39,228 nt of DNA, from NCBI GenBank assembly GCA_038740345.1, contig JAVYMA010000016.1:1-39228 (forward strand), written 5' to 3'. Below, one piece after another: positions 9,671 through 22,210 of this stretch. The notes beneath the pieces are model-generated. The model saw only the letters and a list, made by a program, of their open reading frames with translations. It had not been told where the DNA came from and did no database searches. Source of the DNA: Methanomassiliicoccales archaeon. GTDB taxonomy: Archaea > Thermoplasmatota > Thermoplasmata > Methanomassiliicoccales > UBA472. The translations under genes were made by a program, and so were the position numbers. The number at the start of each line of letters is the position of its first letter. The first letter of the stretch is position 1.

Positions 9671-11383
9671 TCACTTTTTGAGCGCAGCGAATTCTTTCGC
9701 CCCGCAGAGCAAGGAGGAAATGATACTGACTACCTCCTCCCGTTGAACCCTAACTTGCTCTGTCGTATCCCTTTCCCTAATGGTTAAGGTGCCATCTTCT
9801 AATGTCTGGTAGTCAACGGTGAGGCAGAAAGGTGTGCCGATTTCATCCATGCGTGCATATCTGCGCCCAATGGAACCTGAATCGTCATAAGCAGATTCGA
9901 TACCACTCATCCTGAGAGACCAATCCAAATCCTTCGCCACCGCCACAAGCTCGTCCTTAGGCATCAAGGGGAAGACACCAACTTTGATAGGTGCTATCAA
10001 GGGGCTCAATCTCAGCACCACGGTACTGCCCTCCTCTCCTCCCCTCTCATAATATGCATGCTCCAGACAAGTATACATTATTCGATCGAGCCCATGAGAA
10101 GGCTCAATGACATGAGGCACGAATCTCTCTCCCATCACCTTATCCTTTATCTTGACTACTTCAAAGAACTTTTCTTCTACCAGAAGCTCTTCGTTTTCTA
10201 CCTTAATCTTTATTACTCCATCCTTAACCATTTTCGGGTCGGCGTTTTCCAGAGCCTTTCCCACCTGTGCCGATTTAGCCTTGAATGCAGGGCCTAAAAG
10301 ATTGTACTTCGGCTTCAGGACCTCGCGCTCCACCTCGATAGGTGCGTCATAGCGCCTCAGTACGGACATGTCAACTTTAGAATACTCCATATGCCTGGAG
10401 AGGTCCCAGCATCCTCGATCTGCTATACCGACTATCTCTGTCCAACCAATTGAAAGCAACGCCTCCGCATCCCAACAATCCGCGGCATAATGCGCCATTT
10501 CATTTCTCAGATGCTGGCGGAATCTAAGACGCTCGGGATCCACGCCGATCATGACGAGAAATTTCTGGGTAAACCACATGAAATAGGCCAATGTTTCATT
10601 GGCGATCACGCCAGAACCCACTGCCTCTTCTAAACTCATGCTCACTTCCCTGTCTCCAGGATTGTTAGGAACCAAACGAAGACTCTCTCCCTTTACATCA
10701 GCATAGCGTGGCCAACTTTTATTTGCAGGGTCCACAAAGAGTTCCGCCTCCATCATGTTGAATTCTCTTAGACGGATCACGCCCTGGCGTGGGGAAATCT
10801 CATTACGATAGCCCCGACCCACCTGAATCACGCCAAATGGGAGCTTTTCGCGCATGAAACGATACAAGGAATTGAAATTCACGAATATCCCTTGTGCTGT
10901 CTCTGGTCTGAGGTATCCAACCCTTCCTGCTGAACCAGGACCAATCATGGTCTTGAACATTAGATTGAATTCTTCGGAGGGAGAAAGAACGCCCTCGCAA
11001 TCAGGACATCTAACACCCCTTTTTTCGATTTCCCTGTCTAGCTCGCTAAGAGTGAGGGCTGCGGCGTTGGGGCAATCCTTTAATAGGTGGTCTGCTCGGT
11101 AAGGTGCTCGACAATTGGTACACACCACCAACTTGTCGGCGAATTGATCCACGTGACCCGAAGCCTTGAAGACCGCCTCAGGGCCTATGGTATCAGAGTC
11201 TATCTCTACGAATCCTTCACCGAGAGTGTAGGCACGTCGCCAAACTTCGATTATATTGTTTTTCATCGACGTTCCTAAAGGGCCATAATCATAAAGCCCT
11301 GCCACACCTCCATATATCTCGTAAGCTGGCCATATGAACCCCCTGCGCTTGCACAGGGAGAGCACGTCCGCAGAGTTCATCAT
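9671..11383 (-). CDS. glyS: Glycyl-tRNA synthetase, archaeal/eukaryotic type
   Basis: Class II homodimeric GlyRS of 570 residues. The N-terminus GFIWPAYEIYGGVAGLYDYGPLG is typical for the family. A zinc-like insertion (CTNC near 88 and CPDC near 123) follows. Motif 2 is GRGYRNEISPRQGVIRLREF, and EPSHGLDR belongs to the motif 3 region. The C-terminal HGTP anticodon-binding domain begins around LIAPIKVGVFPL. It attaches glycine to tRNA-Gly; a tRNA-Gly(GCC) gene is 4.4 kb away on the same strand. Its ATG overlaps the stop of the upstream CBS gene (ATGA), indicating translational coupling. The length is normal and no motif is damaged. Confidence 0.96.
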   Translation of the reverse strand: MMNSADVLSLCKRRGFIWPAYEIYGGVAGLYDYGPLGTSMKNNIIEVWRRAYTLGEGFVEIDSDTIGPEAVFKASGHVDQFADKLVVCTNCRAPYRADHLLKDCPNAAALTLSELDREIEKRGVRCPDCEGVLSPSEEFNLMFKTMIGPGSAGRVGYLRPETAQGIFVNFNSLYRFMREKLPFGVIQVGRGYRNEISPRQGVIRLREFNMMEAELFVDPANKSWPRYADVKGESLRLVPNNPGDREVSMSLEEAVGSGVIANETLAYFMWFTQKFLVMIGVDPERLRFRQHLRNEMAHYAADCWDAEALLSIGWTEIVGIADRGCWDLSRHMEYSKVDMSVLRRYDAPIEVEREVLKPKYNLLGPAFKAKSAQVGKALENADPKMVKDGVIKIKVENEELLVEEKFFEVVKIKDKVMGERFVPHVIEPSHGLDRIMYTCLEHAYYERGGEEGSTVVLRLSPLIAPIKVGVFPLMPKDELVAVAKDLDWSLRMSGIESAYDDSGSIGRRYARMDEIGTPFCLTVDYQTLEDGTLTIRERDTTEQVRVQREEVVSIISSLLCGAKEFAALKK

Positions 11384-17663: not shown

Positions 17664-18128
17664 TTGCTATCCCTCTTTTTGACATTTCATGGCAAGATAT
17701 GACATGGCAGGATTTCACTCGGTAACAGGCCACTGTGCTTAAAGGTTTTGCCGATTTGACTTTTTACTATTTGGGGAGTTTTAAATGAATTAAAAATGGG
17801 CATTGTTTTACATCAATAGAATAACAAAAGGTTTAGAAAGAATCGAAAAAGGTAATCAGATCCCTTCGACTGGAAATAGAAGAAAAAAGCATGATGAAAA
17901 ATCCACATTATAAACTCTATCGATTTCTTCTAACAATTATAAAATTGTTCATGTCATCCAAATAACAAGTTCTATAGAAAAACTTTTTAAGATATAAATT
18001 AAAATATCATTATTAACTCATTAAAATTAATTTTATTGAATCATGAACGTGTTTAATTCTGCTTATCATTTTTGATAATCAAATCTCTTATTAATAAAAA
18101 TTCAACATGCGTTCCGAGCGTAGATTCG
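17664..18128. other. AT-rich intergenic region with two short palindromes
   Basis: About 465 bases with no credible gene on either strand, clearly richer in A+T than the flanks. It separates divergent genes, so it should hold the promoters of the biotin carboxylase and the response regulator. Two perfect inverted repeats stand out. One is AACAATT-ATAA-AATTGTT at 17932-17949; the other is TTATCA-TTTT-TGATAA at 18063-18078. A TATA-like TTATTAATAAAAAT (about 18085-18098) would start transcription a few bases before the ATG at 18129. Confidence 0.6.
18063..18078. promoter_or_regulatory. Palindrome upstream of the REC-PAS regulator
   Basis: TTATCA and TGATAA are perfect inverted 6-bp arms around TTTT, about 10 nt upstream of the presumed TATA element and 50 nt before the start codon. 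The position suits an operator or activator site; in such AT-rich DNA it could also be chance. Confidence 0.35.
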
Positions 18129-19259
18129 ATGGTGCGCGTTCTTTGCGTCGATGACGAGCAGGACGTTTTAGAACTGACGAAAGCATTTCTGGAGGAGAAA
18201 GGAAACGTTCAGGTCGTGACTTGCCTTTCAGCGATAGAAGCGTTAAGATTGCTGGAAACCACCGAATTTACCGCTATCATTTCAGATTATCAAATGCCAG
18301 AGATGGACGGTTTGAGCTTGCTAAAGGAAGTAAGGGAAAAGTGGCCCAATTTACCTTTCATCTTATTTACTGGGAGGGGAAGAGAGGAGGTGGCCATTGA
18401 CGCCTACAAAAACGGGGCCGACTCCTACGTCATGAAGGGTGGTGATGCGAGAGCACAGTACGAGATGTTAGCTCATGAACTTAATCTTGCGCTCGCCAAG
18501 AGGCATGCCGAGACAGAGTTACGAAAAAGATACAAAAGGTTTAACCTGTTCATGCAAAACATTTCTGATATAATATTTATGGTTTCGGCAACTGGGCGAA
18601 TCATCTATGTAAGCCCTGCAATCCTGTCAGTTCTAGGGTATTCGAGAAAAGAATTGGAGGGTATGGATCTAGAGGAAATCAGAAAGATGCTGCTTACCGG
18701 CTCCCCACACCATCAAAATGCGATGGAGCTTCTTCTAGAAGCTGAGCAAAATTGTGGCTCTTTTCTTAAAGCGAAAGCCAAGGACGGTTCAGTGCGGTTA
18801 TTCCATATAAAGACAAAAATCGTGGAAGAGTCGGAAGGGAAGATGTTTATAGCGATTGCCAAAGACATCACTCATATCACAACGGTAGAGAGCGAACTCA
18901 GGCTTAGGGACAACCTTTTTTCAACTCTTCTTGATTATATGCCTTTCCCCTCCGGTATTACCAGAGCAAAAGATGGAAGGATAATTCACGTTAATCGCAG
19001 TGTGGAAAATATCATGGGATATAGGAAAGAAGATGTAATCGGGAAGACGACGGTCGAGGTGGGACTATGGGATGCTGAGAAGAGGAGTCAAGTGTTATCG
19101 CAACTCCCGCCTGGCAAAATGATGAGGGGAGTGCAAATGGATTTGAGAATGGTAGACGGAAGCAGAGGCGTTTTTACAGTGGATATTATGAGAATAGCTA
19201 TGAATGATATGAAGGATGAACAATTTTTCTTTTTTATGATTAGATCTAGAGTATCCTAA
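18129..19259 (+). CDS. Response regulator with receiver and two PAS domains
   Basis: A 376-residue protein. Residues 1-115 form a receiver domain with acidic pocket DDE, phospho-acceptor D53 in ISDYQMPEMDG, T81 in FTGRG and K103 in VMKGG. Two PAS domains follow, about 135-255 (ISDIIFMVSATGRIIYVSP) and 265-376 (RAKDGRIIHVNRSVENIMG). There is no histidine kinase, DNA-binding or cyclase domain, so it receives a phosphoryl signal and probably passes it by protein contact. Such REC-PAS proteins are common in methanogens and related archaea. I use the ATG at 18129, where the domain normally begins. A TTG at 18072 would add 19 unrelated residues from AT-rich DNA. It stands alone on an AT-rich island upstream of the pilin-like genes, with oligo-T directly after the stop. 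Confidence 0.88.
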   Translation: MVRVLCVDDEQDVLELTKAFLEEKGNVQVVTCLSAIEALRLLETTEFTAIISDYQMPEMDGLSLLKEVREKWPNLPFILFTGRGREEVAIDAYKNGADSYVMKGGDARAQYEMLAHELNLALAKRHAETELRKRYKRFNLFMQNISDIIFMVSATGRIIYVSPAILSVLGYSRKELEGMDLEEIRKMLLTGSPHHQNAMELLLEAEQNCGSFLKAKAKDGSVRLFHIKTKIVEESEGKMFIAIAKDITHITTVESELRLRDNLFSTLLDYMPFPSGITRAKDGRIIHVNRSVENIMGYRKEDVIGKTTVEVGLWDAEKRSQVLSQLPPGKMMRGVQMDLRMVDGSRGVFTVDIMRIAMNDMKDEQFFFFMIRSRVS

Positions 19260-19261
19260 CG

Positions 19262-19267
19262 TTTTTT
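19262..19267 (+). terminator. Oligo-T terminator after the REC-PAS gene
   Basis: Six T residues directly follow the stop codon, within AT-rich sequence, matching the U-tract signals that archaeal RNA polymerase uses to stop. Confidence 0.45.
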
Positions 19268-19562
19268 ATAAATTGAAATTTAATTTATTATAATAGAATA
19301 ATTAATTTTTAATTAAAAATTTTGATTATATTTTTAATTATTTAAAATAAATAAATGAAATCTAAAATTGAATTCAATTGACTTTAATGTTTATCACTTT
19401 ATGGCAGACTTTCTTATGATTATACTTTTTGAAACATTAATTAAAAGAATCTATAACGAATCCTATTCCTTGTAAGTTTCAAAAATAGAGTCCAATAAGA
19501 CTTTCTTTACATTACGAAATATATATATATATAGAAGGAATAATTTTCATTCATTTCATTTC

Positions 19563-19570
19563 TATAAAAT
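19563..19570 (+). promoter_or_regulatory. TATA box of the pilin-like operon
   Basis: TATAAAAT is a near-consensus archaeal TATA element. Transcription is expected near 19593, giving a leader of about 50 nt before the first pilin-like gene and coinciding with the ATG of a 20-codon upstream frame. Confidence 0.5.
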
Positions 19571-19593
19571 ACTTCTAAAAATAAGGAAGTAAT

Positions 19594-19656
19594 ATGATTG
19601 TAATGGTATCACATAAGTCTGTATTTTTTCAGTCCATAAATCATGAAACAGATTGA
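19594..19656 (+). CDS. Possible 20-codon upstream ORF overlapping the first pilin-like gene
   Basis: ATG at 19594 opens a frame of 20 codons (begins MIVMVSHKS) that ends with TGA at 19654-19656, inside the start of the pilin-like gene in another frame. AAGGAAG stands just before it, while the pilin ATG at 19643 has no such site. The predicted transcription start also coincides with this ATG. It could control access to the downstream start by coupled termination and re-initiation, or be a chance frame. Confidence 0.3.
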   Translation: MIVMVSHKSVFFQSINHETD

Positions 19657-20122
19657 CAAAAACTTAGTGAAAGATAAGAGCGGCGGTATAGAGGGGCTCC
19701 CTCTACAGCTGCTTATAATGGTGCTAGTAGCCGGAATCGGATCTGCTATAATTGTAGGCTGGATGGGGGGGTTGGAGGCCCCACAGGCAATTGGGGCGAT
19801 ACATTCATCCGCTTCGGAAATCATCCTACAAGATGGAGATGGGGACGGTATTTATTCGGCAAAAGACCTGGAACTAATCATTACAGTTTTGGATCAAGAA
19901 GGAGATCCAGTAACCGGAGCGGCAGTTGTGATTGAAGGATGTGGCCTTAAAGAAAAGGATGGTCATGCCCCTCATGGTGTAACCGATAATGAAGGTAAGG
20001 TCCACTTCAAAGGACTAACCGCTTCTAGATATGGTAATTCGGTGGGTTTCATCACCATAACTGTGGCTAAAAGTGGAATGTCAGCTAGTAAAAGCATCAT
20101 GGTTCCAGTGGTGTGTACGTGA
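19643..20122 (+). CDS. Pilin-like secreted protein with Ca-loop and Ig-like domain
   Basis: A 159-residue protein whose N-terminus has a charged stretch (KQIDKNLVKDKSGG), then IEGLPLQLLIMVLVAGIGSAII, a hydrophobic helix like those of archaeal type IV pilins cut by a prepilin peptidase. After the helix comes DGDGDGIYSAKDLEL, a calcium-loop-like acidic repeat. A beta-sandwich follows (LIITVLDQEGDPVTGAAVVI to VHFKGLTASRYG), similar to bacterial Ig-like surface domains. It is probably exposed on the cell surface. It is the first of three overlapping genes; an in-frame stop six bases upstream fixes the ATG at 19643 as the earliest start. The exact cleavage site is not certain. Confidence 0.65.
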   Translation: MKQIDKNLVKDKSGGIEGLPLQLLIMVLVAGIGSAIIVGWMGGLEAPQAIGAIHSSASEIILQDGDGDGIYSAKDLELIITVLDQEGDPVTGAAVVIEGCGLKEKDGHAPHGVTDNEGKVHFKGLTASRYGNSVGFITITVAKSGMSASKSIMVPVVCT

Positions 20123-20589
20123 AACGCTCCTTAACGAGAAATAAAAAAGGTGTAGATGGCCTTCCTTTTAAATTACTGATTACGCTCTTAGTGGTAACGC
20201 TATCTTTTCCTGCAATGACCAGTGCCTTGGAGTATTTTTCCTATACTTCGAATTTATCTCTCGCCCTGAAGAGTGCTAACAGCATTTGGGAAGCTGGCGC
20301 TTCCGCATATATTGGTGGGAAAGGCAATATTCGAACAGTACATCTCCATCTTCCATCTAGCCTCTTAGCAATCAAATTAGGGGGAGGTGTGAATGATGCT
20401 GAGGCATACATCATCGAGGTACTTTGGAAAGGCGAGGTCGCAGCAACTGTAGTATTCGAAAGACCAAGTTTCAAACTGATAACTGAAATCGGCAATCGCA
20501 TCGAGCTACAAGGAGAAGCAACTTTGAGATTGACTTGCGTAGAAATAACGGACAAATCTGCCGTATTACTAGAGGTAATAAAATGTTAG
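20113..20589 (+). CDS. Pilin-like membrane-anchored or secreted protein
   Basis: A 158-residue protein with the same N-terminal plan as its neighbour: basic residues, then KKGVDGLPFKLLITLLVVTLSF, a single hydrophobic helix. The remainder is beta-rich (AYIGGKGNIRTVHLHLPSSL, IEVLWKGEVAATVVF) with no recognised enzyme motif. The shared G-(I/V)-(E/D)-G-L-P motif before the helix suggests a common processing or export signal. The start is GTG at 20113, or GTG at 20119 which overlaps the previous stop; both give the same mature protein. It is most likely a minor pilin or pilus-assembly partner. Confidence 0.6.
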   Translation: MYVKRSLTRNKKGVDGLPFKLLITLLVVTLSFPAMTSALEYFSYTSNLSLALKSANSIWEAGASAYIGGKGNIRTVHLHLPSSLLAIKLGGGVNDAEAYIIEVLWKGEVAATVVFERPSFKLITEIGNRIELQGEATLRLTCVEITDKSAVLLEVIKC

Positions 20590-21050
20590 AGTTTCTATTG
20601 TCACGGAGCGCGTTGGCAATCTGTGCGACATTGTTGATAGGAATCATTACTCCTATGTTTTCGAATACAATCCAATCATATTACGAGCAGGAGTGCCGCA
20701 ATTCTCTGAAGGAATTGGCAGCCGAAATAGAGCGAGCCAATTCTTCACCTTTTTGTTTAACTATCCAGTTAAATACAGATCGGGTGCTGATTGCAGAAAA
20801 TTCGTATCTACGTATAATGAATGGTAGTTTATGGCTGATCAAAGATGGAAATCATATAGCAGTGGAGATACCACAAGATATTGAATTATACGCTAAAAGT
20901 AAAAATGACATGAAAATTACCTCAACTCTGGAAGTACGCTCAAAAGATAAACTTATTATCGCAAGAATAGCAAGAGAAGAGCGGCTTCAAACCATCATCT
21001 ATTCGGAAAATTTTGATCCTAACTCTTTTATGATTTCAGCAAACCTTTGA
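20583..21050 (+). CDS. Pilin-like protein (third gene of the cluster)
   Basis: A 155-residue protein starting MLEFLLSRSALAICATLLIGIITPMFS, a single N-terminal hydrophobic helix after a very short basic segment. An alternating beta-type region without known motifs follows. The ATG at 20583 has GAGG 7 nt upstream and overlaps the stop of the previous gene by 7 nt, so I prefer it to a longer in-frame version starting at 20535. The helix lacks the GLP motif of the other two, so it may be an accessory pilin or membrane anchor. Its 3' end overlaps the convergent cysteine desulfurase gene by 52 nt. Confidence 0.6.
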   Translation: MLEFLLSRSALAICATLLIGIITPMFSNTIQSYYEQECRNSLKELAAEIERANSSPFCLTIQLNTDRVLIAENSYLRIMNGSLWLIKDGNHIAVEIPQDIELYAKSKNDMKITSTLEVRSKDKLIIARIAREERLQTIIYSENFDPNSFMISANL

Positions 21051-22210
21051 ATTTCCTTTTCATCATTATAAATATAAAAAGAGGCTCGAGCACACCCTTC
21101 CATTTTTCTTATAATAAAATATGGGTGGGCGCAGTGCATGCCAGACCTTATCATCACCTTTCCTACTTCATCTAATATTATTGCAACATCATGCGAGTTC
21201 ATTCCTTTGATATTGAACGAGAAGATGCTACCTCTTAATTTTGGATTTTTGGGGCCAAGAATGCTAAGACCCGGACAATCTGACAATAAAGAGGTAACTC
21301 TTGCATTCAAAGATTGAACATGCTCGTTCACTTCTTCCAATCCTAAATGAGTTAAATAATCAATAGCGGCTCCAGTGCCAATGATTCCTGAATAGTTCTG
21401 TAGCCCCGCCTCAAATCTGTCTGGAGGAGGTAACAGATCAGCGTGTTCGTAGGTTGTTAAACTGACTGCGCCACCTCCAGTAATGAGAGGTTTCAGGTCT
21501 TTCAGCAATTCCAACCTTCCGTAAAGCAATCCCATTCCCGAGGGACCGAGCATCTTATGCGCTGAGATAGCGTAGAAATCCGCACCAATGCGCTTCATAT
21601 CCAGAGGTTGATGAGAGGCTGCCTGAGCACCGTCGAAGATGACGACTGCACCATAATCATGAGCAATCTCCGCTACATCTTTAACAGGTATGCTAGTGCC
21701 AGTAATATTATTGGTGTGCACCATGCTTACTACTTTTACTTCCCTGTCCATTGCTTTTTTAAATTCCTCGATATCAAATATCTCAGATGGAGGCGTTCTC
21801 ACGAACCTCCTCCTTACTCCTTTCTCTCTTTGAAGACAGAGCCAAGGAACATGATTGCTGTTGTGTTCAATGTCAGTTGTGAGGATCACATCACCTTTTC
21901 GTAGTGAAAGGCCCCTAGCCACAAGATTTAGGGCCTCAGTGCAACTCTTGGTGAAAACGATCTCTTCTGGCGTTGAAGCGCCTAAAAAACGTGCCGCTTT
22001 GTCTCTAGCTTCATCAATCTCTATGGACACTTGGGTGGCGAAACGATGGATGCTTCTTCCTCCGCATGCCGGGAAGAGCTCATAATAGCGGGCCATGGCT
22101 TCCATTACCTTACGAGGTCGAAGCGTTTGGCAGGCGCTATCCATGTAGATAACATCGCCATTTTCAGACTGATATGTTGGGAAATCTTTTCGAATTCGAG
22201 TTACGTCCAT
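20999..22210 (-). CDS. sufS: Cysteine desulfurase, SufS/CsdA class (class II)
   Basis: PLP enzyme of 403 residues that takes sulfur from cysteine for Fe-S cluster and thio-cofactor synthesis. The PLP lysine is in YAISAHKMLGPSGMG. The active cysteine is in RSGMHCAHP, the RxGxHCA motif specific to class II enzymes. The N-terminus IRKDFPTYQ and the segment VSMVHTNNITGTSIPV also fit SufS. No SufBCD genes are visible here. It is divergent from the class I desulfurase at 22365, with the promoters of both in the 154-nt spacer. It is convergent with the pilin cluster, overlapping the last gene. Confidence 0.92.
   Translation of the reverse strand: MDVTRIRKDFPTYQSENGDVIYMDSACQTLRPRKVMEAMARYYELFPACGGRSIHRFATQVSIEIDEARDKAARFLGASTPEEIVFTKSCTEALNLVARGLSLRKGDVILTTDIEHNSNHVPWLCLQREKGVRRRFVRTPPSEIFDIEEFKKAMDREVKVVSMVHTNNITGTSIPVKDVAEIAHDYGAVVIFDGAQAASHQPLDMKRIGADFYAISAHKMLGPSGMGLLYGRLELLKDLKPLITGGGAVSLTTYEHADLLPPPDRFEAGLQNYSGIIGTGAAIDYLTHLGLEEVNEHVQSLNARVTSLLSDCPGLSILGPKNPKLRGSIFSFNIKGMNSHDVAIILDEVGKVMIRSGMHCAHPYFIIRKMEGCARASFYIYNDEKEIQRFAEIIKELGSKFSE

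Follow-up and report, generated by a model that had tools for sequence, protein, structure and literature searches.

The window analyzed here, the whole 39,228-nucleotide stretch of contig JAVYMA010000016.1 from a Methanomassiliicoccales archaeon (assembly GCA_038740345.1; the genome comprises 1.79 Mb on 47 contigs), encompasses three short overlapping open reading frames, denoted here A, B, and C, that had been picked out in an earlier sequence-only reading and are borne out by the ORF listing (Table 1). A and B overlap by 10 nucleotides (nt), and B and C by 7 nt with the C start placed at ATG 20583; the ORF program listed C from TTG 20535, and we consider ATG 20583 the likely start because C begins within the end of B in 45 of the 48 loci from which both genes were extracted (the window included). 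The suggestion that the trio sits on an AT-rich island holds for the intergenic gap in front of A and not for the genes, the GC content of which is 46% in A, 42% in B, and 37% in C, against 46% for the entire window. This gap presumably contains the promoter of gene A.

Table 1 Features of the A-B-C locus in the window and of the ATPase3 and prepilin peptidase loci elsewhere in the same genome.
Feature	Position	Strand or orientation	Description
REC-PAS-PAS protein gene	window, 18072-19259		upstream of gene A
AT-rich intergenic region	window, 19260..19642		383 bp before gene A, 18.5% GC
Gene A	window, 19643..20122	+	159 aa, ATG start; pilin-like and adhesin-like, with basic leader, G-G-IEGLP, hydrophobic helix, DGDGDG loop, Ig-like head
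Gene B	window, 20113..20589	+	158 aa, GTG start; layout like a type IV pilin, K-K-G before VDGLP, helix of 52 residues, beta head
Gene C	window, 20583..21050	+	155 aa (start at ATG 20583); leaderless, M-x-E-F-x-x-S-R, helix of 53 residues, beta head
SufS-like gene	window, 20999-22210	convergent to trio	52-nt overlap with gene C
Pilin-like gene D	L093 (contig C18), 5201-5695	divergent from ATPase3
Pilin-like gene E	L093 (contig C18), 5689-6144	divergent from ATPase3
Cysteine-rich protein	L093 (contig C18), 8227-8769		just upstream of ATPase3; cytoplasmic-looking, no Pfam match
ATPase3	L093 (contig C18), 8774-10495		secretion ATPase, PF00437
TadC-like protein	L093 (contig C18), 10492-12243		adjoins ATPase3
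A24 prepilin peptidase	contig C15, L114:1501-2382		exceeds Pfam cut-offs PF01478 and PF06847

Each of the three proteins contains a single N-terminal hydrophobic helix, as previously proposed; this is seen in the AlphaFold models of B and C and in the sequence of A. The motif G-(I/V)-(E/D)-G-L-P that A and B have in common was likewise confirmed, far beyond chance. In the IEGLP motif of A, the I, E, G, and P are each identical in all 52 proteins of the family, and the L in 51 of the 52. According to PMC4371748, the leader of archaeal prepilins, which lies in front of the hydrophobic helix, has G, A, or S at position -1, preceded by a charged residue at -2. A conforms to half of this rule: position -1 is G, S, or A in 52/52 proteins, and the second half fails because a charged -2 residue is present in 0/52. 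The Ig-like sandwich attributed to A is backed in the window protein by Ig-like Pfam matches that all fall under the curated cut-offs and, across the family, by matches at E ≤ 0.01 to Big_1 (51/52 members) and CarboxypepD_reg (49/52). The acidic, calcium-loop-like stretch (DGDGDG) is present as described and is lineage-specific: it is found in 37 of the 52 A proteins, yet in 2 of the 16 from family f2, which may be the gut family Methanomethylophilaceae, and was therefore dropped as an essential feature. A search of PDB sequences with the A profile produced one weak match (E 0.0065), annotated "Conserved membrane protein." The Pilin_N family (PF07790) matched one of the 52 A orthologues (E 0.0011, threshold E ≤ 0.01), none of the window proteins A, B, and C at E ≤ 1, and no B or C orthologue at E ≤ 0.1.

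The B motif is looser, with P in 49 of the 50 aligned rows and its second position occupied by E in 33 (the L061 row, outside the pattern, was left out of these counts); position -1 is G or A in 49/50 and position -2 is K or R in 36/50. Window B conforms to the archaeal prepilin leader rule because K-K-G precedes VDGLP. The AlphaFold model of B (mean pLDDT 93) consists of a long helix, residues 17-68, followed by a beta-rich head, and the three top rows in a VIA-align search are type IV pilins, in the order FimU, gonococcal pilus, and FimU, all with low Z (4.7, 3.7, and 3.0). The best of these (4ipu) aligns over 78 residues with an rmsd of 3.0 and 13% sequence identity; a Z of 4.7 is below the level that could stand alone, and the modeled arrangement can be a common one. 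When the B profile was compared with PDB sequences, the best match was PilE1 (E 0.011), and five of the nine rows up to E 1 were named as pilin or fimbrial.

Protein C begins with M-L-E-F-L-L-S-R, from which the helix continues directly, without a leader. Its model (mean pLDDT 91) has a long helix at residues 2-54 followed by a beta-rich head and is thus alike in plan to that of B, with a helix of about 52 residues and then the head. The best VIA-align Z for C is 2.6, with no pilin among the rows listed; a Foldseek search against PDB gave no match at E ≤ 0.001 for the B or C model, and neither window protein matched any family in Pfam or NCBIfam. Alignments A1 and A2 took 51 of 51 and 52 of 52 rows, respectively; A3, the alignment of C, includes 43 of the 48 pattern-found rows, leaving out L036 (in-frame stop) and L054, L066, L068, and L076 (overlong frames), as well as the three C genes identified by eye (L061, L067, and L081). 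The in-frame stop in L036 (G005; 10112-10354 onward) is a TAG that follows 81 codons, and the frame stays open past it. TAG can encode pyrrolysine in Methanomassiliicoccales, and this codon can be a pyrrolysine, the mark of a broken copy, or a sequence error.

The trio is conserved as a unit. A search at E ≤ 0.01 detected A in 52 of 61 genomes (60 relatives plus the genome of the window), and one at E ≤ 1e-4 detected B in exactly these 52; neither has a match in the remaining nine (G010, G016, G018, G026, G034, G035, G038, G053, and G059). B follows A in 51 of the 51 relatives' loci; one of these (L035) is cut by a contig end, and in the remaining 50 C follows B, 47 being found by pattern and three by eye. 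Among the loci compared, and measured against the end of the preceding gene, the start of B lies between 34 nt upstream and 27 nt downstream, and that of C between 8 nt upstream and 3 nt downstream. In 49 of the 51 relatives' loci, the trio faces a convergent SufS-like gene, and in 39 a ThpR-like gene lies upstream. The sequence-only reading had named the lack of a shared neighborhood in relatives as the observation that would speak against it; the neighborhood is shared and the three-gene order conserved, and the objection fails. The REC-PAS regulator that it had placed upstream does stand beside the trio in the window, an incidental position: it is near A in none of the 51 relatives' loci and was dropped as part of the unit.

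Outside the order, C was recognized only in locus L158, where A, B, and C lie in a row with no motor in the stretch read. Four further distant loci, L166, L164, L168, and L174 (G090, G114, G106, and G134), harbor clusters of an A-like, a second A-like, and a B-like protein, along with further single-helix proteins, one of which, in L166, is 1008 aa long; no secretion ATPase was found within the stretches read at these four loci.

Four PF00437 ATPases were identified in the genome: two on contig C2, one on C18, and one on C20; none was found on the contig of the window. The statement that the trio lies away from any pilus ATPase in view is therefore correct for this contig, but a separation from pilus machinery is not supported for the genome, where the trio tracks the ATPase on C18, hereafter ATPase3. 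From its gene content, C20 (locus L092, with genes named from reading the sequences) appears to be an archaellum-type locus, and C2 (L091) a pilus locus containing a pair of ATPases and a pair of platform proteins. ATPase3 matches PF00437 with 83.1 bits (cut-off 24.9), retains an intact Walker A motif (GPRGAGKS at 304), and is closest, among solved structures, to 2oap (E 1e-32), which carries the annotation of a type II secretion system protein. In a tree of 32 sequences, ATPase3 and its orthologues form a fully supported clade (100/100) of 25 rows, apart from the seven archaellum and C2 ATPases; the scores between ATPase3 and the other pilus and archaellum ATPases of the order are about 70-120 bits. 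An orthologue is present in 55 of the 61 genomes, with scores of at least 318 bits as opposed to at most 104 bits for paralogues.

The neighbors of ATPase3 are also maintained. A homologue of the TadC-like protein lies by ATPase3 in all 20 relatives' loci examined (in L138, about 5 kb off), and inspection by eye identified E-like genes in 19 and D-like genes in 18 of these loci. The names TadC-like, D, and E were given on the basis of genomic position, helices, and distant relatives because none of the three proteins has a Pfam family match in the genome of the window; the protein next to ATPase3 matches PF00482 above the cut-off in G022 and below it in G039, G042, G044, and G058. The cysteine-rich gene is kept in 15 of the 20 loci and is a possible partner of the ATPase3 motor.

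The A24 prepilin peptidase, with a visible GGAD motif and the C-terminal domain present, was missed by a search with PF01478 only and recovered with a relative's protein as the query; the family is present in 58 of the 61 genomes. None was found in G049 (93% complete) and G037, both of which contain A. Several peptidase matches contain one internal stop each, TAG in G013 and G060 and TGA in G045, G059, and G034 (L099, L101, and L113). In G026 (99% complete), no secretion ATPase, T2SSF platform, A24 peptidase, A, or B was found, and this genome is apparently devoid of any type IV filament machine.

Among the 47 genomes that are at least 90% complete, A and ATPase3 are jointly present in 41 and jointly absent in four (G026, G035, G038, and G053); ATPase3 occurs without A in two, and A without ATPase3 in none (Fisher p = 8e-5, relatedness ignored). 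Restriction to contamination of at most 5%, which dropped two genomes, gives 40, 3, 2, and 0, in the same order. ATPase3 is found without A or B in G016 and G018, and two incomplete genomes, G013 (63%) and G040 (78%), contain A with no ATPase3 found. G035, G038, and G053 keep other secretion ATPases; therefore, the loss of ATPase3 together with A is specific. Across 243 genomes of the phylum, both genes are present in 74, A only in 5, ATPase3 only in 9, and neither in 155. This count sets aside 7 of 86 genomes in which A was matched solely by Ig segments within longer frames; with these genomes restored, the numbers become 75, 11, 8, and 149. The corresponding Fisher p of 1e-45 is inflated by kinship, and the co-occurrence is partly clade inheritance, but families f6, f7, and f8 each contain genomes of both kinds. 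Within the order, the link is co-occurrence only: A and ATPase3 are never adjacent, the nearest pair being about 19 kb apart.

Physical linkage is found in distant genomes, 10 of which contain, at a total of 11 places, an ATPase3 homologue followed on the same strand by an A homologue at a distance of 1.9-2.3 kb. Among the 20 distant loci read, five (L162, L167, L169, L171, and L175) show the ATPase3-then-A arrangement. The interval between the two genes is occupied by a TadC match in four of them and by a frame of 605 aa in the other; the genes of L171 run cysteine-rich protein (recognized by eye), ATPase3, TadC, A, and B. The ATPases beside A score 323-451 bits against ATPase3 of the window genome (190 for the fragment in L162) and at most 116 bits against its other three ATPases. 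A complete trio beside ATPase3 was not seen in the loci read, and in L167 and L169 other genes follow A.

The features by which archaeal type IV systems can be judged stand as follows: the leader is complete in window B, retained at -1 only in A, and lacking in C; the long N-terminal helix with a beta-rich head is seen in the models of B and C; a PF00437 ATPase with an intact Walker A motif is provided by ATPase3; and the genetic linkage of a pilin-like gene to such an ATPase comes from A in the 10 distant genomes. These observations support the pilin-like nature of the trio, and we consider A, B, and C to be, with a probability of roughly 0.7, accessory pilins, located at the tip or serving as adhesins, of a type IV filament machine of the ATPase3 type. 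The trio is probably part of such a machine rather than a stand-alone fiber because it tracks ATPase3 and because the peptidase and the ATPases are encoded in the genome. Of the surface fiber or adhesin complex originally envisaged, the surface role thus survives as the best reading, and the new stand-alone fiber probably does not.

The principal alternative is a membrane-anchored surface complex that acts by itself, in which the three helices pack together, the Ig-like head is exposed, and no ATPase is needed. The separation of the trio from ATPase3 within the order, the leaderless C, the missing charged residue in A, and the two genomes that keep ATPase3 without A or B all fit such a complex; it leaves unexplained, however, both the joint presence and absence with ATPase3 and the location of A directly after ATPase3 and TadC in distant genomes, and we regard it as rather unlikely. 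Less probable still is that the trio supplies minor pilins, via the common peptidase, to any type IV machine present, such as the C20 archaellum or the C2 pilus with its two ATPases. Archaeal pilins encoded away from the motor and common to several motors are described in PMC4858521 and PMC12448462, and the genome of the window has both the archaellum-type locus and the C2 locus. However, in family f2 ATPase3 is the sole ATPase match in 14 of the 16 genomes while A is present in all 16; f2 keeps A mostly without a second motor, and therefore the distribution of the trio is not that of the archaellum or the C2 motor, a dependence that was dropped on this presence pattern. The three genomes with other secretion ATPases but neither ATPase3 nor A speak against a general supply as well. 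The notion that f2 genomes are without any pilus ATPase was rejected when the ATPase3 orthologue search found their motor. Finally, the three genes might form a conserved operon for ordinary signal-anchored proteins that serve the envelope in some way other than through type IV filaments. This agrees with the weak structural matches and with the commonness of Ig-like domains in surface proteins, but is hardly credible given the conserved pilin-like leader and helix of A and B, the prepilin peptidase in 58 of the 61 genomes, and the ATPase3 linkage.

For accessory pilins of an ATPase3-type machine, we propose the following course of cleavage, assembly, placement at the tip or as an adhesin, and filament formation. 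A and B would be inserted by Sec, and the archaeal A24 peptidase would trim B, and probably A, before the (I/V)-(E/D)-G-L-P helix; the leaderless C would stay behind as an uncleaved anchor. The three helices would pack in the membrane, ATPase3 and the TadC-like platform would lift A, B, and C together with D and E, and the heads of A (Ig-like), B, and C would cap or decorate a D/E filament and might make contacts outside the cell. More tentatively, and with the balance of probability against it, ATPase3, the TadC-like protein, D, E, and A-B-C might represent an unrecognized deep branch of archaeal type IV machines that is encoded in three genome places in the order and is the sole machine in most f2 genomes, with a three-subunit cap that initiates, C as a leaderless pilin, and A contributing an adhesive Ig-like head.

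No description of an ATPase3/trio machine was found in the open-access literature searched. A 2016 census lists Methanomassiliicoccus among the organisms in which no secretion ATPases were found (PMC4858521); ATPase3 may belong to a family that the census placed elsewhere. If the assignment is true, Methanomassiliicoccales possess a surface filament machine that would be missed by surveys using older families, its pilins are encoded apart from the motor, and it may serve animal-associated methanogens for attachment. A, B, C, D, E, ATPase3, and the A24 peptidase are the named genes available for direct tests.

The trio was compared with several known systems. Some B orthologues show a weak likeness to the haloarchaeal families DUF7311 (13/51, best E 1e-5) and DUF7266 (5/51); window B itself matches neither, and DUF7311 has no match in the genome of the window and, among 14 control genomes, matched only Haloferax volcanii. 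The bacterial minor pilins, of which FimU is the best VIA-align match of the B model (at the low Z and 13% identity given above), provide the analogy used for the trio, that of a small accessory set capping a filament; GspK class pseudopilins are a further comparison. Unlike bacterial minor pilins, A and B are without the acidic +5 residue, and C is without a leader. The archaellum (ArlB, ArlF, ArlG, ArlI, and ArlJ) resembles the proposed machine in its single-helix subunits with beta heads, its small accessory proteins encoded in a row, and the combination of a secretion ATPase with a TadC-like platform; it differs in that the genome has its own archaellum-type ATPase (L092), in a clade other than that of ATPase3, and in that the trio occurs in f2 genomes, most of which yielded ATPase3 as their only motor. 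The closest parallels are the archaeal pili with unlinked pilin genes, namely, the Haloferax PilA pilins that work with PilB3/PilC3 and the Cuniculiplasma CdiP pilus, as described in PMC4858521 and PMC12448462. Compared with these, ATPase3 forms a separate, deeply divergent clade (100/100), and A and B carry the GLP motif, with Pilin_N recognizable in a single A protein; in common with them, the ATPase3-type machine would have its pilin genes at a distance from the ATPase/TadC operon, a single archaeal prepilin peptidase, and subunits built of a helix plus a beta domain.
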